From contig CM074857.1 of the NCBI GenBank assembly GCA_037501455.1, positions 110,083,501-110,147,500 of the forward strand: a stretch of DNA of 64,000 nt, read 5' to 3'. How positions within the stretch are numbered: position 1 is the first letter of the stretch; each line of letters opens with the position of its first letter. Below the pieces are notes generated by a model, which searched no databases, was not told the DNA's origin, and saw only the letters and a list, made by a program, of their open reading frames with translations. Of this stretch, positions 6,560 through 64,000 are shown piece by piece. This DNA comes from Lantana camara (taxonomy: Eukaryota; Streptophyta; Magnoliopsida; Lamiales; Verbenaceae). A program made the position numbers and the translations under genes.

Positions 6560-6574
6560 ATCTCCCACTTGCCC
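6560..6574 (-). promoter_or_regulatory. Polypurine tract of copia family II
   Basis: On the minus strand GGGCAAGTGGGAGAT lies directly before the 3' LTR terminus TGTTGGGAT. This is the purine-rich primer for plus-strand DNA synthesis. It overlaps the end of the polyprotein stop codon (6576-6574). The family I copy at 60072-60089 has nearly the same tract. Confidence 0.85.
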
Positions 6575-11636: not shown

Positions 11637-11650
11637 GCTCTGATACCAGT
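11637..11650 (-). promoter_or_regulatory. Primer-binding site of copia family II
   Basis: On the minus strand the 5' LTR ends CCAACA and is followed by ACTGGTATCAGAGC. TGGTATCAGAGC matches the 3' end complement of plant initiator tRNA-Met, the standard copia minus-strand primer. Its place fixes transcription direction as minus. Confidence 0.9.
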
Positions 11651-35400: not shown

Positions 35401-38400
35401 GATAATATTTCTCCGACGAGGTGTCAAAGACTGTTTTGGAGAAGGGCCACAGCGTCTTTCCAAAGAAATGGAGCGATTCCTTGATGGTGGTGCTTCTTGT
35501 ACGCTTCTTGACCTCTGTCTTTCACTGTGCAGCCAGATTCAAGGTTAATATAATTAAAAAAGTGACAACCCCTCTTATCATCACATAGGAAGCAACTCTG
35601 TATTGAAAATAAAAAAGAAAAACGAGACACCCTTCTTAATAAAAAATTAACCTACTTTGATTCACTTCTCGATTGGGAGGACTTCATAGGAGAAATTGAG
35701 CGCTTCCATCTGCTGAATGGAGAAAAGGTTATTAACTATATGCGCTGCTAAAAAAAAAAAAATCAGTAATGCATGCCATATGCAATATGATTTATCATGA
35801 TCAGCATGCATACCTTGGAGATGGTGAATGATGGAATGAATCTGGTGATAGCGAACCCCTGTGCAAATAGGATACATAGTAAGCCTACACTCTACAGAAT
35901 TCACAACAGCATGCCATATATTTCTAGGTTCAATCTTTTTCATCCTCAAAGTAAAGCAAATATGAATTAAGAAAAACTATCCGTTACTACAGCTACAAAT
36001 CAACTGCTAGTAACCTAGGGAACAGTTCCGCGTGTTGAAATTTCAGCCCAAATGACAATAATTTAACATGGCACTAGTGTGATAAGTTGAGACATCGTTT
36101 GGATTACACAAATTAGCAGAAAACAATTCTTAACTACCACAGGCTAAGCACTCGTTGCGGTTGTTTAAAGAGAAAACCATTTGTGCAAAATTCTTTTGAC
36201 AAAAGTGACATTAGAAAAAACATCACACCAAACTGACAAACCCTTACCCAGCTTCTCAAAAGTCATATATCACTAGCATTGATGTTTTCAATCAGAAAAT
36301 GATGTGGGGAATAGAAGGCTTTAGATTCACTTTATAGTAGTAACTAGTAAGGCGATCTTCATATTCCAAGTCACTCTTGGAAGGTAACTCATTTTTTAAA
36401 GAGGATTGTTGCTGGTTCCCAACTACCCGAGTGAGACTCGAACCTGTGATCTATCTGTTCATCACAAGTGCAAATGTTTACCACTAAGCTATCTGTTTGT
36501 GTCTCCTAGAAGGTAACTCATTTGAATGTAAGCATTACAATTTACAACCAAAATTTAGTTAATTTTCGTTGTGTGAAAAAGGTAGTAGACTTAAAACAAT
36601 CGAAGCAACAAATGAAAGATACAAAACAAGTCATAAAATATACAATATATTTATATCTTCGGCAGATTAAATTCTACGATTAGTATCTAGCCTGGCGACT
36701 AATATCTACCCCGGAGACATAGTTGTTAAAGGCGAGAGGCGAGGCGAGAGACCGAAAGGCGATAAAATAAATAAAAATTATTATAAAATTATATGTAATG
36801 CAAATATAGTGTAAAAACATATTTAAAATTATAATTGATAAATAAAACCTCTTTCTCTCCATAAATACTTGTATAAAAACTCAATTATAGCTAATAGCAT
36901 ATTAATTTATAATAGCATATCAGAGTTGATTTCTTGTTTTGAGAGAAATGACCGCCTCTTTGTTCTTGACATTTACCGCTAGAAAAGTAATCTAGGTTTT
37001 ACCTTCTTTTTGTCTTATATATTATAAATTTACCTTAGATAATGGGCCTATAGTTCTTTTCTAATGAACTAAAAAAGAGGCCCACTTGTAATCAGTCCAA
37101 AAAAGAACATTAAAAACCTAAGAAAAGCTCTGCGCACAAAAGGCGCGCCTGAAGCATAGGCGAGAGGCGATTCAGGCGACTCAAGGCGGCCGCCTCTCCG
37201 ACATTGCCTCGCCTGACCATGTGCAAGGCGAGAAGCCCTCGCCTCTAGCCCGAGGCGACCAAGGCGCTCGGCTTTAACAACTATGCCCGGAGAAACCTTA
37301 ATAGTGCTCAAAGACCTGAAAAGAAGCTATCAGACTCATTCTAGTGTAGCTTCAAGTTAAATTGGTATACTTTTCTGTGCATATACGAAGCATGATCTAT
37401 TTATATAACTAGGCTCACGATTGTGGGTTCTGATACAGAATTAGTGCTTCTCCGTGAAGCAGAACTCTTCCCCTACTCAAACCAATGACATAATTTGAAC
37501 CAAAACACATTGAGTGGCATAACAACAAATCTGGCCTCGCTTCTCTGAAAAATATTTTAGTGCTCCACTATTTTAAGCTCACTTGATTTCCAGCTTAAGG
37601 GCTACTGGCCATCGCACACTACAATCCAAGACCATCATTCACCTGACTCTAGACAAACATTACAGCACAGAGTTTTAGCAGTTTTGAGCAATATTTCCAA
37701 ATTAGAGAACGAACAACAGCAATGAGACTTAGTATGACAAAATGGAACCAGTACTCGTATTCCTAATGACCTGTTACCCACAAGATCAATAGTAGGAACT
37801 GTACATCGATAAAACTTCAGCCTACTGCCCACATATTGCACCCTACAGGATCTAATCATAAAACCAAGGCCATTATTCTAAATGTTCTAGGAACAGCATT
37901 TCAATTTCTTCCATAGTTGTTAAAGGCGAGCGCTTTGGTCGCCTCGGGCTAGAGGCGAGGGCTTCTCGCCTTGCACATGGTCAGGCGAGGCAATGTCAGA
38001 GAGGCGGCCGCCTTGAGTCGCCTGAATCGCCTCTCGCCTATGCTTCAGGCGCGCCTTTTGTGCGCAGAGCTTTTATTAGGTTTTTAATGTTCTTTTTTGG
38101 ACTAATTACAAGTGGGCCTCTTTTTTAGTTCATTAGAAAAGAACTATGGGTCCATTATCTAAGGTAAATTTATAATATATAAGACAAAAAGAAGGTAAAA
38201 CCTAGATTACTTTTCTAGCGGAAAATGTCAAGAACAAAGAGGCTGTCATTTCTCTCAAAACAAGAAATCAACTCTGATATGCTATTATAAATTAATATGC
38301 TATTAGCTATAATTGAGGTTTTATACAAGTATTTATGGAGAGAAAGAGGTTTTATTTATCAATTATAATTTAAAATATGTTTTTACACTATATTTGCATT

Positions 38401-42935: not shown

Positions 42936-44173
42936 TGTTGGGAAAAACACGAAAAGGAAACGCAGCGGAAATTAAAAATTTTCCCAAAAGTCTGCAATTC
43001 CTATTCCCAATTCGTAGAGATTCAAGAAATCACTTAGATCGACGCTTTCTTGACACGTTTGAGCCGCCCACAAACGCTCTTCAAGTGGCAATTCCCCAAG
43101 CTCCTTCGAATCTTTTAAGACTACACGAAAGTTTAAAATTTTCCAGAAGTTTAATCGTTGTGTTGCAATTTTCATATCGTATCGTAGGGTGTTTTAGAAA
43201 CTTACAAAGTTAGAATCTTTCTAGTGATGTCGTTACCGCCTAACGAACACCCTTTAAGCGAAAATCCCTCGAACGGTCTTCGAATTAGACTCCAAAGTAG
43301 AAGCCCTCCAAAGCATATCCACACCAGTCCTAGAACACGATCAAGCGAGTGAGAATGCTAGTTCTATAGCTTGTGTTAAGGCTAGGATTTTTGCTTTGAA
43401 AACTTTGCTTTTAATTTTCTCAAAAACTTAACACTTCGTGAGTGTTGGTCTAAAGCATAAGAGAAGCATCATCCCTAGTATATATACTAGGTTGGTTCGA
43501 TCCTATTAGGGTTTCCAAGACCCAATTAGATTGTTTTCTTGCTCACTAATTAACTAATTTAATTATTAATTTAATTGGAATAATAAGTTCTTACCTTATT
43601 CTCCAAGTCTTTGCAAGAACAACTTTCTCTCTCCTACAATAGGAAGTTGGACTTTTCAACTTTCCTTAAGTTAAAAGTCAAGATTCAATAAATAATTTAA
43701 TTCCCAATTAATTATTTATTGGGTTAAGTTTATTTGAGAATAGTCTTAATTAATTCAAAATTAATTAAAAGACTAAAATTAATTAATTACAATTTAATTA
43801 ATTAATTATAGAAAAGAATTCGCGTGTGAAATAAATCACGCGCCTAGACCAAGTAAGCAACACGTGTGCGAGACACGTGTTGGCCACGTGCGCGTGAAAC
43901 ATGGCAGCCACGTGTGCGTGACACGTGGCAGTCACGTTCTGAGCATGACACGTGGCGGGGCTCTCATTTTTGTGGCCCTCTTTCGATCAACAATTTGATC
44001 GTTCGTTAATCATATTAACATCCTACCATAACCCTTGTATTTTGGCATTTGTGTGTGACCCTTTAGGTTCATTATTCGATTAGCAGTAACAGTAATTAAT
44101 TAATTCCCTAATTAATTAATCACTTCACAGATCACACACTACCATAATCTAGCAATGGGTGTGTGACCCCTAT

Positions 44174-45018
44174 TGATGAGGCCTGAAAATCACTCTCGAA
44201 TCAGAGCCGTCCACGTGGCAGCACACCGCTGACTAATACCCTGACGCTCGCCTTGGTGGGCTCATGGGCCTTCACGCCGCTCAATTGCCAGGTAATGTCA
44301 TCCATCAGTCAGCGGATGACCATTCGGACCAAGGGCCCTAACCAATGGGTTTGACGCTCGTATAGCGGCCCTCAGGGTTATCCTTCACAGGGAAGCACCC
44401 ACATGAGGGCCCCACTAACACGCTCGGGATTCCGGCGCTCAAGGGTCATATATCGCGGGGAGGCCATCCATGCACTCTTCGAGCGTCACCAGCGTTCGGG
44501 CATGGCCCTGCCCCGTTTCGTTGGATCCGAACCTCGGCAGAAAGAATCCTAGGCCCATCCCCCGCATAACCCTCGTCAACAACCTCTGACACAAAAGTAC
44601 AGTGCCCCGCCCACCTGACACGCCGTCACCCTTTTCAGGGATGTCATTCTCACTCCACCAAAGTCTGACGCGTGTTAGGGCAACACAGGTTTGGGACCAC
44701 ATGGTCAATTTACCCATTTACCCCCATCCCTAACATATAAATAAGAGAGAAGTCATGCATTTTCTCCCAAGTGATCATCTGCATACAAAACCACACACAC
44801 TGTTCTGGGCATTTTCTGGTTAATCTTCTCAAAGCTTTTCGTTTCGCCACAGTAACACTACCTTTGTAGCTTGCACACTTGGTGTTATCCTAGCTGGAAG
44901 AACCCACGCTCAAAAGGAAACCCAGATCCTGAGGCTCTCACGCCTGTGATGGTCTTTCCCTTTTCAAACAAATTCTAAAGTGTTGTTGCATTAGGAAACT
45001 CAGATTCCTGCACCATCA
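44174..45018 (+). repeat. 5' LTR of the Ty3/gypsy element
   Basis: 845 bp, TGATGAGGCC to CACCATCA, essentially identical to 55714-56558. TATA box ATATAAATA at 44735-44743; transcription is expected to begin near 44770. The 92-codon minus frame in each LTR is not considered coding. Confidence 0.95.
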
Positions 45019-45022
45019 TTTT

Positions 45023-45040
45023 TGGCGCCGTCTGTGGGAA
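45023..45040 (+). promoter_or_regulatory. Primer-binding site of the Ty3/gypsy element
   Basis: TGGCGCCGTCTGTGGGAA begins a few bases after the 5' LTR. This form is common in Tat-type elements. I did not assign the matching tRNA. Confidence 0.8.
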
Positions 45041-45095
45041 ACCATCATTTCTTCCTCTGAAAGCTAGTTGAAGAGTAACACCTAAGTCTTGAATC

Positions 45096-48000
45096 ATGGT
45101 TACTGCCACAAGATCTGGAACCCTAGGGAACAGGGGGGGTCTTCCTCCCCCCAATGGAGAAAACGCTAAGAGCCCTGCTCTCGCCGGAGGGGCACCGCCC
45201 CTTGTGGCCGGAAACGTTGACGCCACTGCACCCCTCCCAACTGGAAACGAAACGGGAGGATCAGGTTCCAATCCTCCCCCCCCAACTTTCGCTCCAAGTG
45301 TCCCTGCCTCCCATCTTGGTGTATATCCTATGGCCATGCCGCCGCCAGGATACGCGCTCACGCAGCCCGGAGTAATGCCTGGAACAACGCCGGGAATGAT
45401 ACCTTTGGTCCCTCCATATCAAGTGGGGACACTGAACCTTCCCCTGGCAGTGCCAAGAGAAATACAGGGGGTGGAGATGCCCCAACTCACTACACAACAA
45501 CTTCAGGCGTTGTACGCGCAGTGCGAGAGCCAAGCTGTACAGAATGCCTGGGAGCATTTCACTATGGCTTATTTCCCTTCATACGCTGGCGCTCGGATAG
45601 CCCCACCCTTGGGCGGGCTCCCTGCACATCCTTTGACAATGGCCCAAAATGCTCTACGGGCACAGCAACCTCCCCCACCTGCTCCGAATCAAGAAAATCA
45701 AGCCCCACCGAGGGTCCAGCAAGAACGGCCCGTTGATGGAGATGATAGGGCTCCTCGAAATGAGGTGGCCGGAAATGATGAAGAGGTCCAGTCAAGGGCC
45801 ACCAGGAGGGAAAACCGCAGAAATGTCGGTGACCCTCAGCTAGGAGCGGTGCAAGACCAAATTCGAGGGCTACAAAACGTGGTAGAGCAGCTCTCTCGAG
45901 CACGGTCTCACGCCCCCCGTGAGGGGGACGAGAGGTCCAAGGCCAGAGACGTTCGACGACCACGTAGCCCCGTTTCCCACCGAAGGAGAGAAGCCAGCTA
46001 TGAAGACCCCGACGAACGAGATTATCGGATCATGGCGGGCGATTCCCCTCTCGTCGAGGAAGTCCTAATGACCCGCGCAGGGAAGGGTAAAATTCCCTCA
46101 TCAGTCAACAGATACGATGGAACTACGGATCCATCCGAGCATCTGGACCATTTCGTGCACCTGATGCACCTCTACGACCATCCAGACAACTACTGGGCCA
46201 AGGTGTTTGTCACCTCCCTCACAGGAATGGCCCAAGAATGGTACAAAAAGCTCCCCCCACGCTCAATCCGAGGGTACTATGACCTGACGGATGCTTTTGT
46301 CAGCCACTTCAATTCGCTGAAAGCACCGGCCCCAGCTGCGACCGCTCTTTACAGCCTGGTCCAAGGGCCGAGCGAGACTCTTCGATCTTTCATGGGGAGG
46401 TTCAACAAAGAGATTTTGCTGGTAGAAAAACCCTCGATGGACTTTTTGAGGCACGTGCTGTTCGGTGCCATCAACATGAAGCATTACGTCAGCAAAGAGT
46501 TTGTGGAGGAAGTGGCCAAGAAAAAGCCGCGCTCGTTGATGGAAATTCGGGAGATTGCAGACTCTTTCTTTACCCTCGAGGATATGTATATAGCGAGGGA
46601 GCGGAAGATGGCGAATGCCCCTCGCCCCATCAGAAACCCCGAGGACAGAGTGGAACCCAACAGGAGTCACCGCCGCAGCCCGATCCCCGCTCGTCGTCAT
46701 TCCTCTCCCCCGCGGAGGCTCGAGCGGGTCCCCCTCAATCGCCCAATTGCCGAAGTATATTCTCTGGCGGACCAGAAGCTGTTTAAAAGGCCGCCCAAGC
46801 TAAGAGAGACCGAGGCGCAGAAACGCTCGGGAAAATACTGCGCTTTCCACAAGCAGAAGGGGCATGATACTAATGAATGCCGCCACCTGGAGAAAGAAAT
46901 TCAGCGGTTGATCGCCGGGGGGCATCTCAAAGAATTTGTGAAAGTACTAGAGGGGTACGATGAGCATTGCCAAGCGCTCGAAAGAAGAAGAAGCCGCTCA
47001 CGCTCCCGAAGTCCTCGTCGCCAGCGCCCTGAGAACAGCGAGCGCAATAAAGGGAAAGGGGTAAACATGGAAAATCAACCCTTTGCGGTCATTCACATGA
47101 TTGCGGGAGGCCCCTCGGGAGGCGACTCCAATGCTTCCCGCCGCCGCCACATACGGAGCTATAATCAAAGGCCGGCAATCCCTCGCTCAGTGCTCTCCGT
47201 GGACAGCTCACCACGCTCAAAAGAGGATGATGTTATAGGGTTTACAGAGAAAGATCTTGAACACATTGTAACACCCCATGGGATAGGAAAAACCTCTGAC
47301 TGTCCCATGGTGGTTAGTTTAGACGTTCATAACCACACTGTAAAGAGGGTTTTATTCGATAGTGGAAGCTCTGTGAACGTTCTCCCTTACTCAACGTTTC
47401 AACAAATGAATATAACAAACATCCCCCTCGAGCCTCTCAGAACTGCCCTCGTAGGGTTTGGAGGCTCTGAGATCGTCCCTTGCGGACAAATTCGCTTGGC
47501 CACCTCTTTTGGTCGCGCCCCACAGCGAAAAACTCTGAGCGTCCTCTACACCATCGTCGAGGTGGATCTTCCTTACAACATCATCATTGGGCGCCCAGCC
47601 CTCGTGGATTTCAAGGCTGTAATTTCCACCTATCATCAAAAGGTCAAGTTCCCAACCCCCGAGGGTACCGGAGAAATTTTGTGCAACGTCAAAGAAGCTT
47701 GGAAATGCTATATACTTTCGCTTCGGAGCCACAAGCCCAAACAATCCATTCAACTTGGGTCTACTAAGAAATCTGTTGATTTCCCAGAGTTAAATGAGGA
47801 TGGCCCTGAGCGCAAAAGAGCCAAGCTGAACAGAAAGAAGAATAAAAAGAAGACAGCTGGAGACGTTCAGTGCTCGGAGAGTGGGCCGCCGGGGGCCGTC
47901 GACGGTTCTTCCTCAGAAAACGAGGGTGATGAGCCCAAGAATACTCTCACTGGAAAGAAACGAGCGTTAGAAGCACCGAGGCCGGAAGTTCGGATTGAAC

Positions 48001-51000
48001 CCACTGAGGAGTTTTTGACCGTCGAATTGGAGCCTGGAAATCCAGATAAAACAACCCAGATTGGCTCGAGCCTGGATGAGCCCTCGCAAGTTTTGATGAT
48101 CGACTTCCTAAGGGAGAATCTTGACGTTTTTGCGTGGAAAGCTTCTGACCTCACCGGAATAGATCCGAGCGTCATTGTCCACAGGTTGAACGTGGATCCA
48201 ACCTTCAAGCCCATCAAACAGAAGAAGAGGGACGTTCATGGATTCAGGAAACGGGTCATCGAAGAAGAGGTTAATAAATTGCTTGATGCTCAGTATATTG
48301 AGGAGATCTTATATCCGGAATGGCTCTGCAATGTGGTGCTCGTTCCAAAGAGCGCCAATAAGTGGCGCATGTGCAACGACTTCACAGACCTTAACAAAGC
48401 GTGCCCAAAAGATCATTACCCACTACCGAGGATCGATCAGTTGGTAGATTCTACAGCCGGATGTGAACTAATGAGTATGATGGACGCCTTTCAAGGATAT
48501 TATCAAATCTTCATGGCGCCCGAGGATCGCCCCAAGACTGCGTTTGTTGTGCATTTAGGTGTTTACTGTTTCAAAGTCATGCCCTTCGGGCTCAAAAACG
48601 CGGGAGCGACTTATCAACGCCTTGTCAATAGGATGTTCGAGCGCGAGATTGGAAAATCTATGGAGGTATATGTGGATGATATGATAGTCAAGAGTGAGCG
48701 CCAACACTCTCATCTGGAAGATCTCAAGCAGACTTTCGACATCCTTCGTCGCTACGGAATGAAGTTGAATCCCTCAAAATGCACCTTTGGCGTTCGAGGG
48801 GGTAAGTTCCTGGGATACATGGTTAGTCAACGTGGCATAGAGGCAAACCCCGAGAAGATTAGAGCCATCCTGGACATACCCTCCCCTCGTAACCTGAGAG
48901 AGGTCCAGGTGCTCGTGGGAAAGATCATTTCACTAAATAGGTTCATCTCCCGCTCGGCGGACCGGAACTTACCCTTCTTTAAAATTTTGCGCAACGCTCG
49001 AAACTTTTCCTGGAACGAGGACTGCGAAAAGGCCTTACAAAGCATGAAACAGTACTTGACGAGCGCGCCTCTGCTGACCAAACCGGTCCCGGGGGAAAAC
49101 CTGTTTGTCTATCTATCAGTTTCTTTAGAAGCCATGAGCGCTGTCCTCGTAGCAATCCGCGAGCGTAAGCATATGCCGGTATATTACCTGAGCAAAACTC
49201 TACAGGGGGCCGAGAAAAGATACATGGAAATTGAGAAATTTGCCTTTGCGCTCGTTAACGCATCCAGAAGGTTGAGGCCATATTTTCAAGCTCACTCCAT
49301 CACAGTGCTAACAGATCAACCACTCAAGCAAGTCCTATCCAAGCCGGATGTTTCGGGAAGGTTAATTAAATGGGCCATTGAACTCAGTCAATTTGATATC
49401 TCCTTCGAGCCACGTACAGCCATACAGGCTCAGGCAGTGGCAGATTTGTTGGTAGAACGTTTCAATTTGGAGACTGTGCCGCAGGAGGACGAGGGTTTAT
49501 GGCTTTTGCACACGGATGGCTCCTCGACCTCACAAGGGGGCGGTGCCGGGGTGACCCTCAGGGATCCCCTCGGAACAGAAGTTGACTACGCAATCAAGCT
49601 AGCGTTTCAAGTCACCAACAATGAAGCCGAATATGAGGCACTCATCCAAGGGCTCAGGATTGCGCTCCAAAATGGTGCCGCTCGTGTCACAGCATACGTT
49701 GATTCGCAGTTGATAGCGAGTCAAATTGATGGTAGTTATGAGGCTCGAGAAGCCACAATGGCACGGTATCTATCGAGCGCCAAGGAAGAGATAGCCAAGT
49801 TCAAGGAATTCCATCTTTTGCAAGTTCCGAGAGCAGAAAACGAACGCGCTGACGCTCTCTCGAAGTTTGCGTCCGCTCTTGACGGCCACAGTGAACGCGT
49901 AGTTACGTTTCTGAGAACAGAGGAACCACTGATAAGTAAAGGCGAACCCTCGAAAGAAGTGCACATGATTGACCCCTCCGAGCCTTGCTGGCTTGACGAG
50001 ATTGTCAGATTCCTCCGGGATGGAACATGCCCGAGCGACAAAGTTGAGGCTCGGAAGATCAAAAGTAAGGCCCCTCGTTTCTCGTTGGATACCGAGGGCA
50101 GATTATTCAAACGATCCTTCCAGGGTCCACCGATGCGATGTTTAAGACCCTCGCAAGCTAAAGAAGTTTTAGAGCATGTACACAGTGGAAGTTGTGGAAA
50201 CCACTCGGGCGGACGAATCTTGGCGAAGAAAATTTTAAGGAGTGGATTTTATTGGCCCTCGGTATTGCAGGATGCCATTCAATATTCCAAGAAGTGTCCC
50301 AAGTGCCAGTTCCACTCCAACACCCCCCAGTTGCCGGCAGCTCAAATGATTCCTATTGATGTTTCCTGGCCTTTTGATCAGTGGGGCATTGATATCGTGG
50401 GACCTCTCCCAATGGCGGTCGGGCAAAAGAAGTTCGTAATACTTGCTGTGGATTACTTCACCAAGTGGGCTGAAGCAGAAGCGGTAGCCAAAATAACGTT
50501 CAAAGTTGTGAGAGATTTCATTTGGAAGAATATCATCTGCAGATACGGCATCCCGAGGGTGCTCATCTCAGATAACGGTTCCCAGTTTATTGCTGCGGAC
50601 ACGAGGGATTGGTGCTATGAATTAGGGATCGAGCAACGATTCACTTCCGTGGGCCACCCTCAAGCTAATGGTCAGGCTGAAGTGACCAACCGAACCATAC
50701 TCCAGCATTTGAAAACGATGCTCGAGAGTAAGAAAGGAGAATGGGCTGAAGAGCTTCAGGGAGCTCTGTGGGCTTATCGTACTACTCCGCGAGCGGCAAC
50801 AGGGGAAACCCCTTATTCCCTCGTGTACGGCTCTGAGGCCATGATACCTGCGGAAATTGCACAAGAATCCGCACGCGTAGCCTATTTCGAGCCTACAATC
50901 AACGACGTCAATAGAGCGCTCGAGTTAGATTTGCTGGATGAAAGGAGGGACTCTGCGTGGGCACGTATTCACAAATACAAAGCAACCGTCGCTCGCCAGT

Positions 51001-51218
51001 ACAATAAACGTGTTAAAGAAAGGACTTTCCAGCTAGGGGACTTGGTCCTCAAAAAAGTTGAAGTCTCAAAACACGTAGGCAAGTTGGACCCTAATTGGGA
51101 AGGCCCCTTCAAAGTCATTCAAGTACGAGCGAATAACACCTACTTGCTAGAAACTTTGCAAGGCGAGCGTCTTCCTAGGCCATGGAATGCACATAACCTT
51201 AGAAGGTTCTACGTGTAA
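45096..51218 (+). CDS. Ty3/gypsy gag-pol polyprotein, 2040 aa, intact
   Basis: Encodes capsid and replication enzymes of the element in one frame. Order by approximate residue: Pro-rich N-terminus to 200; Arg/Glu-rich stretch 210-320; Retrotrans_gag 346-450; knuckle CAFHKQKGHDTNEC at 582-595, a C-X2-H-X4-H-X4-C variant usual in this lineage; protease DSGS at 755-758; RT with YVDD at 1192-1195; RNase H with TDQPL near 1410; a second RNase H with HTDGSS near 1472, NNEAEYEAL near 1508 and YVDSQL near 1534; integrase zinc finger from His 1693 to CPKC near 1735; integrase core with WGIDIVG near 1765, SDNGSQF near 1826 and Glu near 1862. It ends without a chromodomain. The first ATG after the primer-binding site is taken as start. 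No stop or frameshift. Confidence 0.95.
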   Translation: MVTATRSGTLGNRGGLPPPNGENAKSPALAGGAPPLVAGNVDATAPLPTGNETGGSGSNPPPPTFAPSVPASHLGVYPMAMPPPGYALTQPGVMPGTTPGMIPLVPPYQVGTLNLPLAVPREIQGVEMPQLTTQQLQALYAQCESQAVQNAWEHFTMAYFPSYAGARIAPPLGGLPAHPLTMAQNALRAQQPPPPAPNQENQAPPRVQQERPVDGDDRAPRNEVAGNDEEVQSRATRRENRRNVGDPQLGAVQDQIRGLQNVVEQLSRARSHAPREGDERSKARDVRRPRSPVSHRRREASYEDPDERDYRIMAGDSPLVEEVLMTRAGKGKIPSSVNRYDGTTDPSEHLDHFVHLMHLYDHPDNYWAKVFVTSLTGMAQEWYKKLPPRSIRGYYDLTDAFVSHFNSLKAPAPAATALYSLVQGPSETLRSFMGRFNKEILLVEKPSMDFLRHVLFGAINMKHYVSKEFVEEVAKKKPRSLMEIREIADSFFTLEDMYIARERKMANAPRPIRNPEDRVEPNRSHRRSPIPARRHSSPPRRLERVPLNRPIAEVYSLADQKLFKRPPKLRETEAQKRSGKYCAFHKQKGHDTNECRHLEKEIQRLIAGGHLKEFVKVLEGYDEHCQALERRRSRSRSRSPRRQRPENSERNKGKGVNMENQPFAVIHMIAGGPSGGDSNASRRRHIRSYNQRPAIPRSVLSVDSSPRSKEDDVIGFTEKDLEHIVTPHGIGKTSDCPMVVSLDVHNHTVKRVLFDSGSSVNVLPYSTFQQMNITNIPLEPLRTALVGFGGSEIVPCGQIRLATSFGRAPQRKTLSVLYTIVEVDLPYNIIIGRPALVDFKAVISTYHQKVKFPTPEGTGEILCNVKEAWKCYILSLRSHKPKQSIQLGSTKKSVDFPELNEDGPERKRAKLNRKKNKKKTAGDVQCSESGPPGAVDGSSSENEGDEPKNTLTGKKRALEAPRPEVRIEPTEEFLTVELEPGNPDKTTQIGSSLDEPSQVLMIDFLRENLDVFAWKASDLTGIDPSVIVHRLNVDPTFKPIKQKKRDVHGFRKRVIEEEVNKLLDAQYIEEILYPEWLCNVVLVPKSANKWRMCNDFTDLNKACPKDHYPLPRIDQLVDSTAGCELMSMMDAFQGYYQIFMAPEDRPKTAFVVHLGVYCFKVMPFGLKNAGATYQRLVNRMFEREIGKSMEVYVDDMIVKSERQHSHLEDLKQTFDILRRYGMKLNPSKCTFGVRGGKFLGYMVSQRGIEANPEKIRAILDIPSPRNLREVQVLVGKIISLNRFISRSADRNLPFFKILRNARNFSWNEDCEKALQSMKQYLTSAPLLTKPVPGENLFVYLSVSLEAMSAVLVAIRERKHMPVYYLSKTLQGAEKRYMEIEKFAFALVNASRRLRPYFQAHSITVLTDQPLKQVLSKPDVSGRLIKWAIELSQFDISFEPRTAIQAQAVADLLVERFNLETVPQEDEGLWLLHTDGSSTSQGGGAGVTLRDPLGTEVDYAIKLAFQVTNNEAEYEALIQGLRIALQNGAARVTAYVDSQLIASQIDGSYEAREATMARYLSSAKEEIAKFKEFHLLQVPRAENERADALSKFASALDGHSERVVTFLRTEEPLISKGEPSKEVHMIDPSEPCWLDEIVRFLRDGTCPSDKVEARKIKSKAPRFSLDTEGRLFKRSFQGPPMRCLRPSQAKEVLEHVHSGSCGNHSGGRILAKKILRSGFYWPSVLQDAIQYSKKCPKCQFHSNTPQLPAAQMIPIDVSWPFDQWGIDIVGPLPMAVGQKKFVILAVDYFTKWAEAEAVAKITFKVVRDFIWKNIICRYGIPRVLISDNGSQFIAADTRDWCYELGIEQRFTSVGHPQANGQAEVTNRTILQHLKTMLESKKGEWAEELQGALWAYRTTPRAATGETPYSLVYGSEAMIPAEIAQESARVAYFEPTINDVNRALELDLLDERRDSAWARIHKYKATVARQYNKRVKERTFQLGDLVLKKVEVSKHVGKLDPNWEGPFKVIQVRANNTYLLETLQGERLPRPWNAHNLRRFYV

Positions 51219-52259
51219 ACTTCAACCTCTTTGTAATGGCCCGTCCGCGGCATGAGATGTTTTCTTTGATGAAAAGCGCGTTGTAATAATTCCCAGGAAT
51301 GCATTTATAACAGTAAGTATTTAATTCTTTGATTTTGTTATCCATTTATTTTTTTATTTGATCTAATGATTCGAGCACCAAAAGGCCTACTCCGTGTTGA
51401 GCATCCTCCACGTTGAACGGTCTACGCAATACATCAATTGTTTCAAAACTACACTGTCCAGGTGTTGATATTCATCCACCTATAACAATTTGAGCGATTT
51501 GTAAGAACAAATCCTAAAGAATGAGCGCGTCGGACAGTGGGGAGCGCAACGCTCAACTTACGCCAGCTGAGTGCTCATCGCTCCAGTTTGTGCCCGTAAG
51601 AACCCCCTCTGACCCTCATCCAATTGGGTAAGAGCACGCTCGTAAATAGTGGATGCCACTAACACTACAGCTACGCTCGTTTTAACCCTTACTAAGCCAA
51701 CCCTACAGGCCAAATGTCTACGGCCGGTACTCAACTGAATCTTTAGGGATTTCCTAAGTTCAAACTCAAACCTCAAGGAGAATATGGCCTGGGAATATTC
51801 ATAACAATCACCCTCGCGCCTGAGTTTCCTCAAAGGTTTTCTAAGTCCAAATACACAGTTCATCTTTACTGAGGCCTGGGAGCCTTCCTAAGGGTCACCC
51901 TCGCGCCCATACTTGCAATAAGCCAGCCGCCTAGCGTCGCGAGCATCTAAGCTTAATTTGCATGATGACGAATGTCAGAGGACCGTCGTAAAAGACGCCT
52001 TGGCCTACTTACACACTAATCGCAAACGCTCAAACAAGCAGATTTCGATATGAAAGCTTCAAAGCTCAACAAGTTTACATCATTCACCATCCAAGAGCAA
52101 AGAAAAACCATTCAAACAATAAAGCAGTAGAGAAAGAAAGCTAAAGTATGAAAAGAAAATCAATACGTTAAAGGAATAACAGGAGGGTTAAATACAAGCA
52201 TAAGATGTTCATAATGATGGAAAGGAATTTAAAACAGCAAGGGATCAGCATAGAGAGAT
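51219..52259. other. Non-coding gap between pol and the antisense gene
   Basis: About 1 kb separating two convergent genes, so it should hold both 3' ends. A phrase of about 35 bp, GGCCTGGGA...CACCCTCGCGCC, is repeated at about 51787 and 51873. A minus frame of 101 codons (51863-51558) has no recognisable domain. Confidence 0.6.
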
Positions 52260-55124
52260 TCAATGGGCCGGAGCGTCTGGTTCAGGAGGGGCTGTTGCTA
52301 GGGGAACTGGAGCCAGTACGTTAGCATCAGAGGTATGATCCTCGCCGGGCTCATCCGCATCCACTACGTCCATAAGAGTGCCTTCATCTTCAATCAAGAG
52401 AGGCTCGGGATCCCTCCGGTTTGCGGCAATAAACTCCCTCTGGAGCGTTTCCACCAGCTCCTGATACTCGGGCTCCGCTAGATTATCCGTGGGATCCTCC
52501 TCCTGGACCATTGGCTCGCCGTTCTCATCAAGATCCATGCGCAGACGAGCGTCGGTACGAGCGCTTTCCGGAGCCAGTCCAAACCTCACCATCTGCCCAA
52601 TCGCCTTGTGAAAGAAGCGTCGAGCATTATCGAAGCATTGGATGTTGGCCGCAAACACAAAGGCTTTAGAGCGCACGAACTTCTTCACCGCCTCCCAAGA
52701 TACCTTCGCCTCCAAGCCCTGTATTTTGCCCTGCAAATCAGCGAAGGCCTTGTTGGCTGCCTCGTTTTGGCGGGTGCTTTCCGCTAACTGCTCCCCCAGT
52801 TCCACATTTTGAGCCCTCAGCTGGTCTCGCTCCTCCTTCATTTTCTTGTGACGCTCGTCGAGAGTAAGGTAGGCCTCGTCCGTCTTTCGAAGGTTCTCCC
52901 TCGCTTGGTCCAAATCACGTTGGGTTGTGGTCAGTTGAGCGTGGAGGTTGTTGTAATCCTCTTGCAGTTGGACCGGGTCAGAGACGCGCAGCAATTTCTT
53001 GTACTTGGCTTTATGCTCAGAATATGCTTGCGCTCGCCCTTGCAAGTTTTTCAGCCTCGGGATTACCTCCTGGAAGCAATAAACGAGGGTCATTATCCGA
53101 ATGTGGAAGGAAGAAAAGGAGATTTGATATAGAGGAATAAAGAATTACCGTCAAAAGGACGTGGCATGCGTCATCCGCAATGCGAGCGGGATCATGATTG
53201 TTCAGCTTGTCATGATCGCCGGAAAATTGTAGTTTTCCAACGATGTCGGAGACAAGGTTGACGGAATAAGCGCTCTTCTTTAGGAGTACAGGGCCCTCAG
53301 TCCGCTGCCGCTTGTAGCGAGAGTCACCCTTGCAGCCTATCTTCCAAAATACTTCATCCTCAGAAGATGAAGTGTCGCTGCCCTCGCCGCGGTGGCCCAC
53401 GACCACCTCTTTACCCTTGCCTGAAATGGGGAGAGAATCTGGCATCCTCTTTCTCTTCCCCAGACGGTCGGCACGGATGATCTCGTGAATACGGACAGGC
53501 TCACCCGAGCGGTTCCGTGACCCGCTGGAGCTGAGGGAAATTGGGCCCACGGGGGCAGCCGGCGGAGGAGTGGCCTCGCGGGTACCCTCCAACGTTAAAT
53601 CCTCGATTGGGCCCCTCGGAGGAACTTCATTTCCTGCGCCCCCACGGGCCTGCCCTTGTCCTCTGCCCGCCGCTCGACGGTTTACCCTCGCCCTCGGTGG
53701 GCGGTTCTGCTGTGTTTGCGGCTGTTGAGGATCCGCGGCGGGCCCTTGAGCACCCAACATCCGTGATAAGGCCTCAGCATTCATCCCTCGTGAGAGTATT
53801 TGGATACCTGCAAATAAAGGGGAACGAGCGTCATAAGAACGGTTGTTTGAATTGTATAAACGAGAAAGCAGGGATAACTGTAAGTCAGAGAACTATTCTA
53901 AAGGTTAGAGATGTTAGTTCCTAGAATCTAACCGTCGAGGGCCATAATGTCAGTAGGCGGATGGAGAATCATTTCAGGGGGGCAGGATAATCCGTATCGG
54001 AACAACACTCCTTCATTCTTCACTAAGGTCTCCGCCTCAATCCACTTCTTTTCAGCCCGCATCTCGAGCGCTAACCCCATCGCCCACTCCTCAAAATCCT
54101 TGTTCCTCATCCTCTCCCTAATCAGGGGACCCTCACCATGAACCAGCCATTGTCGGTGAACTCCGAAAATTCCCCCGGGAGCCCCCACGAAAAAATATTT
54201 CTCCTTCCAGTGCTCGCCATATGAGGAAGATGGAGAATTTATCATCTTAAAGCCTGATTTGGCCTGAGCGTAGTAAAATCCATCTGTGGGCGACGAGCGT
54301 GGTGAGCGGGCCGCTTGGATCAAGCTGTCAAAATTGATGATCGAGGGTGCTTTGCCCAGGGCCTTCATCGTTATTATGAACGTGTTGATTAGGGCTATGC
54401 CGTTGGGGAGAATTTGTGAAGGGCAAAGCCCTAAGTGTTGGTAGATGTTGGCGGCCTCGCGAGCGATGGGAAACCTCAGACCCCCAGCCAGAACGGCGTC
54501 CCAGTATACAGTCAGCATCCCGGGCGGTGGTCGATTGGCTCTTTCTCCCTCCTCCGGGAGCCTCGTGGGAAACACGGCTTCATCCCAATATGCCTTCGCC
54601 CTCAACTCATCCAAGTCACCGAGGGTCAGAATACTCTCAATTTCCTCCGGAGACCTGTCAGTCTGATGGCGGTTGTCTTGTCTTACTCGAGTGACAGGCT
54701 CCTTGCCTCTTCTGTGACGCCTCCTGGAAGGTTCTGCCTCGAATGGACGCCCAGATGGTCCCGCTTCACCCTCGGGAGCCGCCATCGCTACTGTGATCCT
54801 GTGATCTTGGGGTCTCACAGCACTGTTCAAAACTGGGAGGGCTCTTTCCCCTTGTCTCATCATTTCCATCACATTGTCCATCTCCTCAAAGGGATCTTCC
54901 TGCTCACCGAGAACACGCTCGTCCATCCCCTGAACAACATCGTTCACCTCTTCCTCCCCGGCGTCAACTGGAGCCTGGGCCACCGATATAGCCATGGGAA
55001 TACCTCCAACTGGGTGCGCCCTAGTTAGGGGAACGGCCACGGGGACATCACCATGAGGAGAAGAGCTCCCCACGGACATCTCCTCAATCTCCCTCACATA
55101 ATCATCGGCTTGATTTCCGGCCAT
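52260..55124 (-). CDS. Spliced antisense gene of the Ty3/gypsy element, 886 aa
   Basis: Three exons on the minus strand: 55124-53933, 53807-53149 and 53069-52260. Both introns (125 and 79 bp) are GT-AG with TTTGCAG and CTTCCAG acceptors, and the lengths sum to 2661 nt, exactly 887 codons with the stop. Acidic N-terminus; residues about 199-330 (from PPPGMLTVYWDAVLAGGLRF) match my recollection of the Pfam 'putative gypsy type transposon' domain (PF04195); a basic GKRKR stretch lies near 514; about 620-740 is a long predicted coiled coil; the C-terminus is acidic. No catalytic motif. Function unknown; such antisense genes occur in several Tat-lineage elements. The uninterrupted frame argues it is still under selection or very recent. 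Confidence 0.88.
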
Positions 55125-55405
55125 GGTCAGTTTTCAATTTTTGGGGAATAGGATTTCTAACAGAGAGCTTAAGGGGGGATAAACTTTCTGAAACAAATTC
55201 AACGGTGGATGGTGGTTTTTCCTTCAAGGGTTTGTCTCACACAACCTAAAGCTAATGTTAGTACGGGGAAAATAAGAAGAAGAGTCAGGAATTTTTTACC
55301 TAAGATTTGGAGAAGAAGAAATTCGCCGGAGCAAAGGACTCTTGCTATGGATATGCTTGAAGGAAGTCTGAATGCGTGAAAAAGCTTCCAAGGCCCTGCA
55401 AACCC

Positions 55406-55414
55406 TTATATATA
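55406..55414 (-). promoter_or_regulatory. TATA box for the antisense gene
   Basis: TATATATAA on the minus strand, about 280 bp upstream of the antisense start codon, between it and the 3' LTR. A transcript start near 55380 would leave a 5' UTR of about 255 bp. It lies inside the element, so the gene need not depend on an LTR promoter. Confidence 0.6.
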
Positions 55415-55699
55415 GGGGAGGTGGAGCATGGGTTGGGGATGAAAATTCAAAAATGCAATCATTTCCCGCCTAGGAAACCCCCCACATTTGGTAACCGCCT
55501 CACGTCTCCCGGAGTCCACGCGCCCACGTTCCCACTCAGCATTAAATGCGGACTTGACAGCATTTAATGCGATGTCAGTTTGTGTCCGTTACAGAAGGCC
55601 AGCAGTCTTCTTGAGGGTAATGCCCCGTCCCTCGGATATTTGAAATTCAGGATCCCTCCTTTATAAATTCTACAGTACGCTCGATGCGATACTACAGAA

Positions 55700-55713
55700 T
55701 TTGGGGGGCAAAA
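55700..55713 (+). promoter_or_regulatory. Polypurine tract of the Ty3/gypsy element
   Basis: TTTGGGGGGCAAAA directly before the 3' LTR start TGATGAGG. It primes plus-strand synthesis and fixes the element's orientation. Confidence 0.85.
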
Positions 55714-56558
55714 TGATGAGGCCTGAAAATCACTCTCGAATCAGAGCCGTCCACGTGGCAGCACACCGCTGACTAATACCCTGACGCTCGCCTTGGTGGG
55801 CTCATGGGCCTTCACGCCGCTCAATTGCCAGGTAATGTCATCCATCAGTCAGCGGATGACCATTCGGACCAAGGGCCCTAACCAATGGGTTTGACGCTCG
55901 TATAGCGGCCCTCAGGGTTATCCTTCACAGGGAAGCACCCACATGAGGGCCCCACTAACACGCTCGGGATTCCGGCGCTCAAGGGTCATATATCGCGGGG
56001 AGGCCATCCATGCACTCTTCGAGCGTCACCAGCGTTCGGGCATGGCCCTGCCCCGTTTCGTTGGATCCGAACCTCGGCAGAAAGAATCCTAGGCCCATCC
56101 CCCGCATAACCCTCGTCAACAACCTCTGACACAAAAGTACAGTGCCCCGCGCACCTGACACGCCGTCACCCTTTTCAGGGATGTCATTCTCACTCCACCA
56201 AAGTCTGACGCGTGTTAGGGCAACACAGGTTTGGGACCACATGGTCAATTTACCCATTTACCCCCATCCCTAACATATAAATAAGAGAGAAGTCATGCAT
56301 TTTCTCCCAAGTGATCATCTGCATACAAAACCACACACACTGTTCTGGGCATTTTCTGGTTAATCTTCTCAAAGCTTTTCGTTTCGCCACAGTAACACTA
56401 CCTTTGTAGCTTGCACACTTGGTGTTATCCTAGCTGGAAGAACCCACGCTCAAAAGGAAACCCAGATCCTGAGGCTCTCACGCCTGTGATGGTCTTTCCC
56501 TTTTCAAACAAATTCTAAAGTGTTGTTGCATTAGGAAACTCAGATTCCTGCACCATCA
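55714..56558 (+). repeat. 3' LTR of the Ty3/gypsy element
   Basis: 845 bp, identical to 44174-45018 except G at 56151 where the other has C. It carries the same TATA box, so it could drive transcription into the flanking copia LTR. Confidence 0.95.
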
Positions 56559-56872
56559 CCTATCCGAATAACGAAATGAATCGAAGAACCTTTCAGTCAA
56601 TGACAATCTGTGAAATATGATCCTCCTACAACTCCATCTCTCAATCAAGAACTAAGGCATGGGAATATTTTGAGAGCCCAAATATTCTTGATCTTTAAAG
56701 TTAAGTTCGTTTCATATCCATTTCGATCTCAATCCTAGAAAACCCCATTTTCTAGATATCTTGATCTTTCATCCACCTTGGCCAAGGGTTTAATGCTTAA
56801 TAGACTACGAACAACTTAATCAGTAAGAGATCATTCTTCTTAACTTAGGTCCTTTATCGATTCTACTAATTC

Positions 56873-58564: not shown

Positions 58565-60071
58565 CTAGATTATTAATCCACACCAACCTCGATCACGATC
58601 TAAACAGGGAGGATGCTAGTTCTATGTTTAGTGTTTAGGCTCTAAGGTTTGTGTGATATAATATTGGAGAAGGAGATTTTTCTATCAATCATCAAGGGGT
58701 TCGAACCCCTTGTATTTCTAGCTACGGGGTTCGAACCCCATATCCCTTTTGGAACAAGATTCTTATCCTACTAGCTAATTAATTCCTTGCTTGGAGAGAA
58801 AGACTCTCGACTTTGACCAAAAGTCTTCTTTTGACCAACTTATCTTCCAAGGAAAAATATCTAACTCTTTTAGATATATTCTTTAATTATTTATTTATTC
58901 ATAATAAATAATTTGATGCTAATAATTAATTAATTTATAATCAATTATTTATTAGACTTGATATCTCCAAATTAGAACTTTAATAATAATTCATAATTAA
59001 ATTAAAGTCCATTAAATAATTAATCAATATTATTTATTTAACATACACGTGTCCCACACGTGTCACGCAGGACACGTGTCCCACACGTGTGTCTTACCCT
59101 CTAGGTTCTTAATTCAATTAGCAGTGACCCTAATTAATTAATTCCTAATTAATTAATCAGTCCACAGATCATACTACCATAGTCTAGCAACAGGTGTGTG
59201 ACCCCTAGTTGAATAAGAATGTCTCAATTCGAAAGAACTTTTAAGTCATTGACATATGTCAGATAAAGTCCTCCTACATCCTATCTCTCAATCAAGATCT
59301 AGTGTAAGGGAATAATTAGAGCCCCAATAATCTCGATCTTAAAGTTAAGTGCATTTTATATCCATTTGATCTCGATACAAGAAACCCATTTCTTGATCTC
59401 GATCCACTGCATTGGTCAAGAACTCCTCTATGGCATATGAATGACTTACACAATAAGAGATCAATTTGCTTACGCAAGTTTAGGTCCTTTATCGATTCTC
59501 ATATGCTTCCATGTGCCACTTGTGTAGCCCCAGTATAAGCTTTGAACCAGCTGTCTAGGGCGACATCCTTTAAAGCTTATAACTAAGACTGCAGAGTTAG
59601 CCCACAAAGCATCGATGGAATCTCAAGTCTAAGGACTACTAAATCACATCAATGACTCGTGAACAAGCAAGCAAGCACCCCCATGTATCATGCACGTATC
59701 AGCAATACACTTTGCACCCCATGAAACAAGGTGGTCCTTCTTAAGGGCGCGATCACACGAGCAAGCCTCGAACGAGTCATATCGACACTCCCACTGTCTT
59801 TTGGACTCATTGGCTTGGAATGATTTCTAATCATGACTTAAGTGATTTAGGGCTCTTTTCATGAACCATTTCTCCTAAATGGTTGAGTCTTATAAGTCAT
59901 ATTGTTTAGGGGAGTTCTAATACATACATATAAAGTAAACATATAATCAAACAAGAGCATATAAAGAAGTGTTGCCTTAGTTCGTTTATTATTCAAAGAT
60001 TGTATGTGATTTACAAAAGGAAAAGTACTAAGCAGACTATTACATCAGCTTTCAGGGCACTATTCCTAACA
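58565..60071 (-). repeat. Truncated 3' LTR of copia family I copy 2
   Basis: Homologous to about 15676-17388 of the copy 1 LTR; the outer 200-odd bp next to 58565 are missing. On the minus strand it starts TGTTAGGAATAGTG at 60071, directly after a polypurine tract, confirming it is a 3' LTR. Confidence 0.85.
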
Positions 60072-60116
60072 ATCTCCCACTTGCCCATCAAAGCCACTCA
60101 TAAGCTAATCTAAGTC

Positions 60117-63100
60117 TCATCTTGCAAGATGACTTTCGAATACTTCTCGACTAAGAGGTTTTGTAAGTGGATCTGCTACGTTCTCTACTGATGTGACCCT
60201 CTCTATTTGCACATCACCCCGTTTGATGATATCATGGATTAGGTGATACTTCCTCATTGTGTGCTTGGTCCGTTGGTGAGATCTTGGTTCTCTTGCTTGA
60301 GCAACCGCCCCAGTGTTGTCGCAAAACACAGTAATGGGGTCTTTCATGCTAGGAAGGACATTCAATTCTTGAATGAAGTATCTAATCCAAACACCTTCCT
60401 TAGCTGCATCATTTGCAGCTAAGTATTCGGCCTCAGTGGTCGAATCTGCAGTGGTCGTTTGCTTGGAACTTTTCCAACTCACTGCTCCGCCGTTAAGGCA
60501 GAAAATGTATCCTAACATTTACTTAAAATCATCTAAGTCAGATGAAAAGCTTGCATCATAGAATCCTTCGACGATTAGATCTTTCTGTACTCCGTATACT
60601 AAGAACAAATTCTTAGTTCTTCACAAGTACTTTAAGATGTTCTTCACGGCAGTCTAGTGACCATCTCCAGGCTCAGATTGGAAACGGCTTGTTATACTAA
60701 ATGCATAAGCCACATCCGGTCGAGTACATAGCATTACATACATTATGCTACCTATTGCCGAGGCATAAGGAATATGAGCCATTATTTTTTTCTCAAGATT
60801 TGTCTTAGGACACATCTTCTTTGAAAGACATGTTCCTACGCTCATGGGAAGATTCTTATTCTTAGAATCTTCCATGATGAACCGCTTCAGTACTTTATCT
60901 ATGTACATAGACTGTGATAGTCCTATTAATCTCTTGGATCTATCTCTATAGATGTTAATGCCGAGAATATAGGATGCAACACCAAGATCTTTCATCTCGA
61001 ATTGATTCGATAACCATGACTTGGTAACTTTCATGTCATCCTTCGAATTCTCAATTAGAAGGATGTCATCAACATAAAGTACCAAGAATTACACTGAAGT
61101 CTCCAATTCATTTCTATACATACAAGACTCATTCGAGTTTTGAACGAAGTCAAATGCTTTGACCGCTTCATCAAAACGAATATTCCAATTCCTAGAAGCC
61201 TATTTCAATCCATAGATTGATCTTTGGAGTTTGCAAACCTTTTGCTCACTCTCACTGAATCTAAAACCTATGGGTTGACCCATATAAATGTCTTTATCAA
61301 TGTCTCCATTGAGAAAGACAGTTTTCACATCCATTTGTCATATCTCGTAGTCATAATACGCAGCTATGTCAAGCATGATTCGAATAAAATTTTACATTGC
61401 AACCGGTGTGAAGGTCTCATCGAAGTCCATGCCTGGCCTTTGAGTGAGCCCTTTAGTAATAAGTCTTGCCTTGTAGGCTGCAACATTACCATCCACTCCA
61501 AGCTTTCGCTTAAAGATCCATTTACACCCTATGGGTTTTACCCCATCAGGCAGATCCACCAAGGTCCAAACTTGATTAGAGTACATGGATACCATTTTGA
61601 ATTTCATGGCTTGTTTCCACTGTTCAGAATCCGAGTCTGATAGTGCCTCCTCATAAGTTAAAGGGTCAATATCCTCTTGAGAGATTTCATGGAGAAAACC
61701 ATACCAACTCTCAGGTTGTCTAGGAACGCGGTCAAAATGCCTTAGAGGAGGATTTTCACGTGTATCGAAGTTCGTGATTAGCTGTGGGGTAACAGGTTGG
61801 GACGTCTCTTGCATATGTGGCGTGGGTATGTCTCGAATTTCTCCGTGTTCTGTGATCTTGGCTTTCTGTTCTCCAAGGAACAGTTCCTCAAGAAAAGTCG
61901 CATTTCTTGAAACAAACACCTTTTGGTCCGTTTGATCATAGAAGTAGTATCCTATGGATTCCTTAGGATAGCGAATAAAGTAGCATAAGTTAGAATGTGC
62001 TTCTAACTTATCTCCCACTGTCCTCTTCACATGAGCAGGATAACCCCAAATTCTCAAGTACGAATAACTAGGGATTTTGCTATGCCATATTTCATAGGGT
62101 GTTTTAGGGACTGATTTGGAAGGAACAAGATTCAAAATCTTGGTTGCACTTTCTAGAGAATAACCCCAGAAGGAAGGTGGTAAGTCAGTGAAACTCATCA
62201 TGGAACGAACCATATCGAGTAGGGTTCGATTCCTTCTCTCAGAAACTCCATTAAGTTGAGGAGTTCCTAGAGGAGTCCACTGAGAGATAATTTCATTATC
62301 TCTGAGATGACTAAGGAATTCTTCACTAAGATACTTGCCACCTCGATCAGATCGAAGTGTCTTAATCTTGTGACCAGTTTGGTTCTCAACCTCCTTTTGA
62401 AATTCTAAGAATTTCTCAAAAGCCTCAAATTTGTACTTCATTAAGTACACATAACCATAACGACTAAAGTCGTTAGTAAAGGTCTTGAAGTACTGATGAT
62501 TGTTTCAAGTGCTTACACTAAGTGGCCCACAAACATCAGTATGGATCAAATCCAAGGTCTTAGTGGCTCGTTCCACATTCCCTTTGAAAGGAGTTTTGAA
62601 CATCTTTCCTTTGAGACAGGATTCACAAGAAGTTAACTGTTTAAGGTCATTTTCAGAGAATATCCCAAAGGTAGTTAACTTGCTAATTCTATTCTTGGAA
62701 ATATGTCCTAATCTAGCGTGCCACAAAGATGTTGAGACTTCGTCATCTCTCTTACGTTTTGTTTCTCGTTATATATTCAAAATATTGGTGTTTTGAGTTA
62801 TATAAAGTCCATTGTTTAATGTACCAAGATGTATTGAAAAATCATTCTTTTTAAAGAAAAAGTTACCATTCTTAATATGAGTTTCATAACCTTCACAATC
62901 AAGTATTGGAACTGAAATTATATTACGAATAATGTTTGGTACATAAAGGACTGTATTTAAAACTAAAACAAAACGACCTAAATCTAATTTAATTATGCCT
63001 CAAGCTTGAGCCTCAACACTTGAGCCATCTCCAATCTTCAAGACACATTCTCCTCCTTTGAGCTGTTGAACCTCACTTAGCATCTGTACATCATTACAGA

Positions 63101-63999
63101 TATGAGATCCACAACCGATATCAAGTACCCAAGAGTTAGAATTAAAAGAAAGATTTACTTCAATGAGAAACATATCTTCTTTAGAGTAGCCTTGTACTCC
63201 TGGTAGTTTCTCCTCCAATGCCCCGATTTGCCACAATGGAAGTAAACGTCCTCTTTTTTATCACGTTTCTTTTTTTGGGCTTTTCCCTTCTTGATGCCGC
63301 CATTGGGCCTAAGGGATTTCTTCTTCTTTTGGGCTTTCTTGCCCTTGCCTTTAGAAGGCTTAGAAGAAGATGGAGTTGTGACCATCATAATCTTTTGTCC
63401 TTCTTGATCGTGCTTTCAGCAGCCACAAGCTAACTAATCAGCTCAGCTGTAGTAGCATTTGCATGATTCATGTTGAAGTTAAGGACAAATAGGTTAAAAG
63501 ATGGTGGGAGCGAGGCTAGCAACAAATCCACTGAAAGCTCATCTCTGAGCGGCATGTCCATGGAGGCAAGTTTCTCAGTAAGAGCAAGAAACTTGAGTCC
63601 ATATTCATGGACACTCGTACCTTCCCTCATTCTCAAATGGAATAATTCTTTTGAGGTGTTATACCTTGTAACACGTTTATGAGGGTGGTAAAGTTGCTCT
63701 AAGTGGTCGTAAATCTCCCAAGCAAATTCCATTGATTCATGCTGTCTTTGCATGTCCGGAGACATGTTAGAAAGCATGAGACAACGGGCTTGGAGATTAT
63801 CATCCTTCCACTTCTGGATCGCATCCCGCTCAACCTGGGTCGGAGCTTCCCCTTGAGGAATGGGCTCCGCCTCGTAGAGAACATAAGTTCTTTTCTCGGA
63901 ATCTAGAACGATTTTTAGATTCCTAAGCCAATCAGAATAGTTGGGACCAGTCAACTTGTTTGACTCGAGGATCGATACTAGAGGGTTTTTGGTTGCCAT
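60117..63999 (-). pseudogene. Decayed copia gag-pol of family I copy 2
   Basis: From ATG 63999 the minus strand reads UBN2-type gag to a nonsense codon near 63430, then in shifted frames a knuckle region VYFHCGKSGHWRRN near 63215 (its first Cys is Tyr), a protease-type segment near 63110 with DIGCGSHIC in place of DSG, pre-integrase MWHARLGHI near 62720, integrase with SDRGGKY near 62350 and the conserved PLGTPQLNGVSERRNRT stretch near 62260, RT with LYVDDILL near 61075, and RNase H with the copia C-terminal motif NVADPLTK near 60165. At least four frame changes and several stops make it non-functional. The order gag-protease-integrase-RT-RNase H is that of Ty1/copia. Confidence 0.88.
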
Positions 64000-64000
64000 T

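Follow-up and report, generated by a model that had tools for sequence, protein, structure and literature searches.

Antisense ORFs carrying the TRP28 domain (PF04195) are a published hallmark of Retand elements, and hence the kind of gene described here is already known. In the part of Vicient 2025 (PMC11963269) that was available, 97% of the Retand clusters of recently active elements (61 of 63) carry such ORFs, and DNA binding is the predicted activity of TRP28. The same source counts 104 antisense ORFs in its 63 representative clusters, mainly ORFs of at least 600 bp, includes an 'SMC'-type label in its table, and gives G21, P25, L34, P46, N47 and F55 as the well-conserved residues of PF04195. 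Its Retand ranges are 315-1,194 for the LTR, 7,380-12,869 for the internal region and 2,933-6,566 for the stretch from pol to the 3' LTR. No word starting with 'intron' occurs in the available text of that survey, and a search of titles and abstract openings for the splicing of antisense Retand genes yielded no description of it.

Antisense transcription is also described for maize Grande, in which gene23 is transcribed from its own promoter and has a nuclear product, according to the accessible sections of PMC7264820; these sections urge attention to antisense and spliced transcripts. An additional RNase H domain (aRH) between RH and integrase (INT) is the arrangement of Ogre and Retand, as given in the available part of PMC6317226, whose survey took ORFs of at least 250 codons.

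Here we describe a minus-strand gene in a 64,000-nt stretch of Lantana camara DNA (the whole stretch is called the window below). We regard it as probably a spliced antisense gene with an accessory role, carried by a recently inserted element of the Tat lineage (most likely Retand) and encoding an 886-aa protein that would be nuclear and act in trans.

A young Tat-lineage host element

We found that the gene lies within a complete Tat-lineage Ty3/gypsy element of ~12.4 kb (44174-56558, Table 1), with LTRs of 845 bp, an internal region of 10,695 bp and 4,495 bp between pol and the 3' LTR. Since the two LTRs differ at only 1 of 845 sites, the element is young; assuming 1.3e-8 substitutions per site and year, the insertion age is on the order of 50,000 years. 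The original prediction of a young Tat-lineage host thus agrees with the near-identical LTRs, the 5-bp target-site duplication and two RNase H domains in gag-pol.

Table 1. Positions of the host element's parts and of the antisense gene within the window.
Feature	Positions	Strand	Details
Target-site duplication CCTAT	left 44169..44173, right 56559-56563	.	5 bp, read from the element flanks
5' LTR	44174..45018	+	845 bp, TGATG...CATCA; 99.88% identity with the 3' LTR, single difference at 44611
Primer binding site region TTTTTGGCGCCGTCTGTGGGAAAC	45019..45042	+	directly adjoins the 5' LTR; basis, position and sequence
gag-pol	45096..51218	+	single intact 2040-aa ORF; basis, Pfam domains in order and motifs
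Spacer, pol stop to antisense stop	51219..52259	.	1041 bp
Exon 3	52260..53069	-	residues 618-886 and stop; long coiled-coil helix followed by an acidic tail
Intron 2	53070..53148	-	79 nt, GT-AG
Exon 2	53149..53807	-	split codon 398 to residue 617; proline/glycine-rich basic linker, KRKR at 515
Intron 1	53808..53932	-	125 nt, GT-AG
Exon 1	53933..55124	-	residues 1-397; ATG in ACCATGGC context; weak PF04195 at residues 210-265
Probable 5' leader intron	55188..55299	-	112 nt, TAG/GTAAAA ... TTTGTTTCAG/AA; 38% GC
TATA box of antisense gene, TATATATAA	55406..55414	-	outside the LTR; matches TATAWAW
Polypurine-like tract TTTGGGGGGCAAAA	55700..55713	+	immediately precedes the 3' LTR
3' LTR	55714..56558	+	845 bp

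The gag-pol ORF encodes, in order, gag, protease (FDSGSS), RT (YVDD), RH, a second RH (aRH) and integrase, with a weak Pfam match for the protease (18.7 bits vs the cut-off of 24.3). The RNase H domains are RT_RNaseH at residues 1334-1433 and RVT_3 at 1473-1592 (Pfam), and the succession RT, RH, RVT_3, Integrase_H2C2, rve places aRH between RH and INT. The second domain matches models and chains of RNase HI from halobacteria and other prokaryotes and looks intact, with the expected acidic residues kept as judged by eye. The first has Ser in place of what we take to be its catalytic Asp. This substitution fits the decay of the original RH that is reported for Tat elements in the available part of PMC6317226.

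The presence of both RH and aRH places the element in the Tat lineage. The position of aRH is shared by Retand and Ogre, and an antisense ORF between pol and the 3' LTR is a further Retand feature; the single uninterrupted gag-pol ORF together with this antisense ORF favours Retand. Hence, judged by its sequence organisation, the element probably belongs to Retand. No tandem repeats were found in the element and no tRNA genes within the 64,000-nt window.

The element is inserted in one copy of a repeat family that occupies 16305-17390, 44050-44173 plus 56584-56864, and 59088-60073. The related copies show the insertion site uninterrupted, and both flanks of the element align to 59088-59499 and to 16305-16720. 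The window also holds a second LTR-type element at 4297-13911, with direct repeats of ~2.26 kb that are 97% identical; between them, the minus strand carries Ty1/copia-type ORFs for gag, integrase and RT. At either end of the window (1-3683 and 60455-64000) lie two Ty1/copia segments that are related to each other (84-91% identical) and whose ORFs are either interrupted or truncated at the window edge. An inverted repeat pair, 36730-37285 and 37912-38480, has 95% identity over 569 bp with ~630 bp between the copies.

Open frame, splice sites and predicted promoter

Joining the three minus-strand exons (1192 + 659 + 810 = 2661 nt) gives exactly 887 codons, that is, 886 aa and a stop, and this terminal stop is the only one. 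The original prediction of three exons with GT-AG introns and no internal stop was correct in its join coordinates. Neither intron length is divisible by 3; retaining intron 1 brings an in-frame stop right past the junction, and retaining intron 2 shifts the frame and runs into a stop. The introns are T-rich at 37-38% GC, compared with 54-59% in the exons. A tblastn search of the window for a second copy of the gene returned nothing beyond the three exons.

We compared the open frame with 300 dinucleotide shuffles of the region. The longest stop-free runs in its six frames are 398, 294 and 291 codons (sum 983), and the shuffles gave a longest run of 308 and a top-three sum of at most 634. The exon 1 run and the top-three sum therefore exceed all 300 shuffles; neither the second nor the third run does so by itself.

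We scored codon usage with a log-odds model trained on the element's own gag-pol and not on the antisense gene. The annotated frames scored +86.0 (exon 1), +17.8 (exon 2) and +62.8 bits (exon 3), each the best of six; 14 of the remaining 15 exon frames were negative, and one, on the opposite strand of exon 3, was weakly positive (+11.4). The joined coding sequence scored +166, and the highest of 500 base shuffles reached -142; since shuffled sequences gain stop codons, this control in part repeats the evidence of the open frame. In the spacer between pol and the antisense stop, the codon score was negative in all six frames and the longest stop-free run was 109 codons, on the minus strand; the 3' ends of the two transcription units would face each other there. 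An ORF on the plus strand (54435-55028, 197 aa) was rejected as a shadow of exon 1, as it has no family match and exon 1 scores negative for codon usage in each frame of its opposite strand.

These scores bear on whether the frame is intact merely through the youth of this copy, the gene no longer mattering to the family. The single LTR difference does leave little time for decay. However, the source copy would have had to be intact too, the codon usage is strongly coding, and 61 out of 63 recently active clusters of Retand retain antisense TRP28 ORFs, as reported in the available part of PMC11963269. Hence, we consider it quite improbable that the gene is only carried along.

Splice sites were scored with approximate weight matrices over donor-acceptor pairs 60-400 nt apart in ranges chosen around each join, with the frame left open. 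The intron 1 pair ranked first of 50 open pairs and the intron 2 pair first of 36. Intron 1 has a weak donor, seventh in score among the region's 124 GT sites, and a rival donor at 54136 with the same acceptor scored 8.78 vs 9.08 for the annotated pair. This in-frame donor would remove 68 codons (53933-54136) downstream of the TRP28 region; since those codons score as coding (+21.4), we take it as an alternative form at most. Together, stop-free runs, codon usage, splice pairs and GC contrast are four partly independent tests that agree, and they confirm that the gene is more than chance.

A mechanical ORF list splits the gene into pieces of 398, 255 and 277 aa, and these could be three separate, unspliced antisense ORFs; each is longer than the 600-nt threshold of the survey, as stated in the part of PMC11963269 at hand. 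Against this, the top-scoring splice pairs sit exactly at the frame changes, the introns are AT/T-rich next to GC-rich exons, and a TATA box and an ATG-free leader precede exon 1. We therefore hold separate ORFs to be very unlikely and proceed with one spliced gene.

The TATA box TATATATAA lies 282 bp upstream of the ATG at 55124, where a minus-strand TATA had been predicted at about 280 bp, and 300 bp into the internal region from the 3' LTR boundary. Minus-strand TATAWAW occurs at two locations in the whole 12.4-kb element, 55414-55406 and 51309. The 281-nt leader from TATA to ATG is free of ATG, and the start context ACCATGGC is good. The leader probably contains an intron (55299-55188) that was absent from the original prediction: judged by site scores, its donor at 55299 is the only leader donor above 2, and its acceptor TTTGTTTCAG before 55187 is the best in the leader. 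Over both strands of the whole window, scores as good occur at 1.35% of GTs and 0.72% of AGs. A bacterial promoter and terminator scan, inapplicable to a plant, was set aside; it gave 1 promoter-like site on the plus strand vs 0.7 expected.

The antisense transcript might itself be what works, pairing with sense genomic RNA to give dsRNA and siRNAs that limit the element, the reading frame being incidental. From the anatomy, the transcripts would overlap by ~3 kb, and the available part of PMC7264820 allows a regulatory RNA role in some cases, which may coexist with a protein role. A noncoding RNA, however, needs neither 887 open codons, nor coding-type usage, nor frame changes exactly at splice sites, and we judge this explanation unlikely. 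The open frame, splice-site grammar, codon usage, TATA box and intact element are all read directly from the DNA, and we continue with the protein-coding reading.

The predicted protein and its proposed action

A profile search placed a match to PF04195 at residues 210-265 of the spliced protein (E = 4.7e-4, 20.8 bits) and scored exon 1 alone slightly higher (E = 1.7e-4, 22.2 bits). The original prediction of a relation to PF04195 is thereby supported by a weak match, one that stays below the gathering cut-off of 26.2 bits. At ungapped spacing, 5 of the 6 conserved TRP28 residues are present (G215, P219, P240, N241, F249) and position 34 is Y228; this agreement is weak evidence, since the register was picked for best fit. 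A single-sequence structure model gave no usable fold for the TRP28 region (pLDDT 33).

The exon 2 product is a linker of low hydrophobicity without a family match. An NCBIfam search of exon 2 for the 'PolIII' label that appears in PMC11963269 found no match, and so exon 2 gives no help to a one-spliced-gene reading for Retand. Basic stretches of the product (RRR at 134, KRKR at 515) hint at a nuclear protein.

Exon 3 is modelled as a single helix with a heptad pattern over residues 32-122 of its product (protein residues 649-739), followed by the acidic tail, with pLDDT 90-96 in the core and 77-79 at the ends; the coiled-coil C-terminus of the original prediction is thus supported by the single-sequence model. 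It matches SMC models (TIGR02168, E = 2.4e-5), at 22.3 bits vs a cut-off of 567; an SMC identity was rejected, as the match reflects coiled-coil similarity only.

We found no homologue of the spliced protein at E <= 0.001 among the 7993 scored protein-database candidates sharing most words with it, and none of exon-1 residues 150-398 at E <= 0.01 among 2512 scored candidates. A control search with pol gave 3134 relatives at E <= 0.001 among 7957 scored. Among the best 120 of these 3134, none carries a lineage label and the organism-named ones are all plants; the best four of the 120 by score are from Centaurea (49-54% identity), and the highest identities are in Sesamum (60-61%), with Paulownia at up to 60% and Primulina at up to 59%. 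This distribution may reflect an asterid host. The protein search depends on shared exact 5-residue words and plant polyproteins are present in the database; hence, the result for the antisense product points to fast divergence or to limited sensitivity. The product also had no match in viral contigs or GTDB genomes, which are viral and prokaryote sequence and therefore little informative, and a viral-contig search with the RT part was likewise without match.

By analogy with other elements, the product is most likely a nuclear accessory regulator. An internal minus-strand Pol II promoter ~300 bp before the 3' LTR would give an antisense pre-mRNA, which would lose the probable leader intron and the two coding introns. 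The N-terminal half of the resulting 886-aa protein would contain a divergent PF04195 (TRP28) domain; a basic linker, possibly bearing a nuclear localisation signal, would connect it to a long coiled coil, with an acidic tail behind. It would enter the nucleus and self-associate through the coiled coil, its TRP28 half would bind element DNA or chromatin, and it would act in trans on the transcription, silencing or integration of the element. The nuclear and DNA-binding steps are taken from other elements, namely from Grande gene23 and the published TRP28 prediction, as given in the available parts of those reports.

A more specific role would be that of an anti-silencing factor guarding the element from host methylation, comparable to the accessory proteins that Vandal DNA transposons of plants encode. 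The fit is only a general one, in that a young element carries an extra protein that may be nuclear, and Vandal accessory proteins are cited as protecting against de novo silencing in the accessible part of PMC11728184. We regard this analogy as improbable for the present gene and keep to a nuclear accessory regulator acting in trans.

Sense RNA from the LTR promoter would serve as genome and as gag-pol message, and the antisense protein would need its own spliced minus-strand transcript. The introns had been predicted to bar the product from packaged RNA; the antisense orientation already does that, and what stands is that the introns bar unspliced minus-strand RNA from giving the full product. 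From such unspliced RNA, only the part containing TRP28 (398 aa) would be made, and the coiled coil would be missing. Because GT-AG reads CT-AC on the sense RNA, the introns should escape splicing there and persist through reverse transcription.

We tentatively extend this model to Retand as a whole, as a serious possibility that falls short of being the expected outcome: a single conserved gene, spliced and coding for a TRP28-linker-coiled-coil protein, may have the antisense TRP28, 'Smc'-like and other ORFs as its exons, with introns that are kept through many rounds of retrotransposition because they are antisense. If so, splicing could decide which RNA makes the protein. If the gene model holds widely, ORF-based surveys split one protein and treat its parts as unrelated domains. 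Antisense TRP28 ORFs are near-universal in recently active Retand elements (61/63, in the available part of PMC11963269); the gene model names a protein and the RNA junctions that would make it.

Comparison with known systems

The locus agrees with the Retand TRP28 ORFs of Vicient 2025, as far as the available part of PMC11963269 describes them, in its antisense orientation, its position between pol and the 3' LTR and its TRP28-like region. The lengths of the LTR, of the internal region and of the stretch from pol to the 3' LTR all fall within the published ranges, and gag-pol is in one ORF, as in 37 of the 63 clusters. In contrast, the antisense ORFs here join through two introns into one gene model for an 886-aa coiled-coil protein, the PF04195 match does not reach the curated cut-off, and the tandem repeats of about half of the recently active elements were not found. 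Given the length thresholds of the published surveys, such a gene would be recorded as up to three ORFs; what is possibly under-described is that separately listed antisense ORFs may be exons of one gene.

Grande gene23, as described in the accessible part of PMC7264820, is likewise an antisense accessory gene between pol and the 3' LTR with its own upstream promoter; the likeness is one of arrangement, and the promoter here is predicted from the TATA box and leader. Its product is nuclear, whereas here there are basic patches only. PvRetro13 ORF2, known through the same part of PMC7264820, is an antisense ORF with 'SMC' similarity, and exon 3 here matches SMC models too, a likeness of labels; the label here stands for a coiled coil only. 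Ogre resembles this element in retaining an intron within a Tat-lineage element. However, Ogre carries its intron in gag-pol, in sense orientation, whereas the present element has antisense introns and an unbroken gag-pol ORF.
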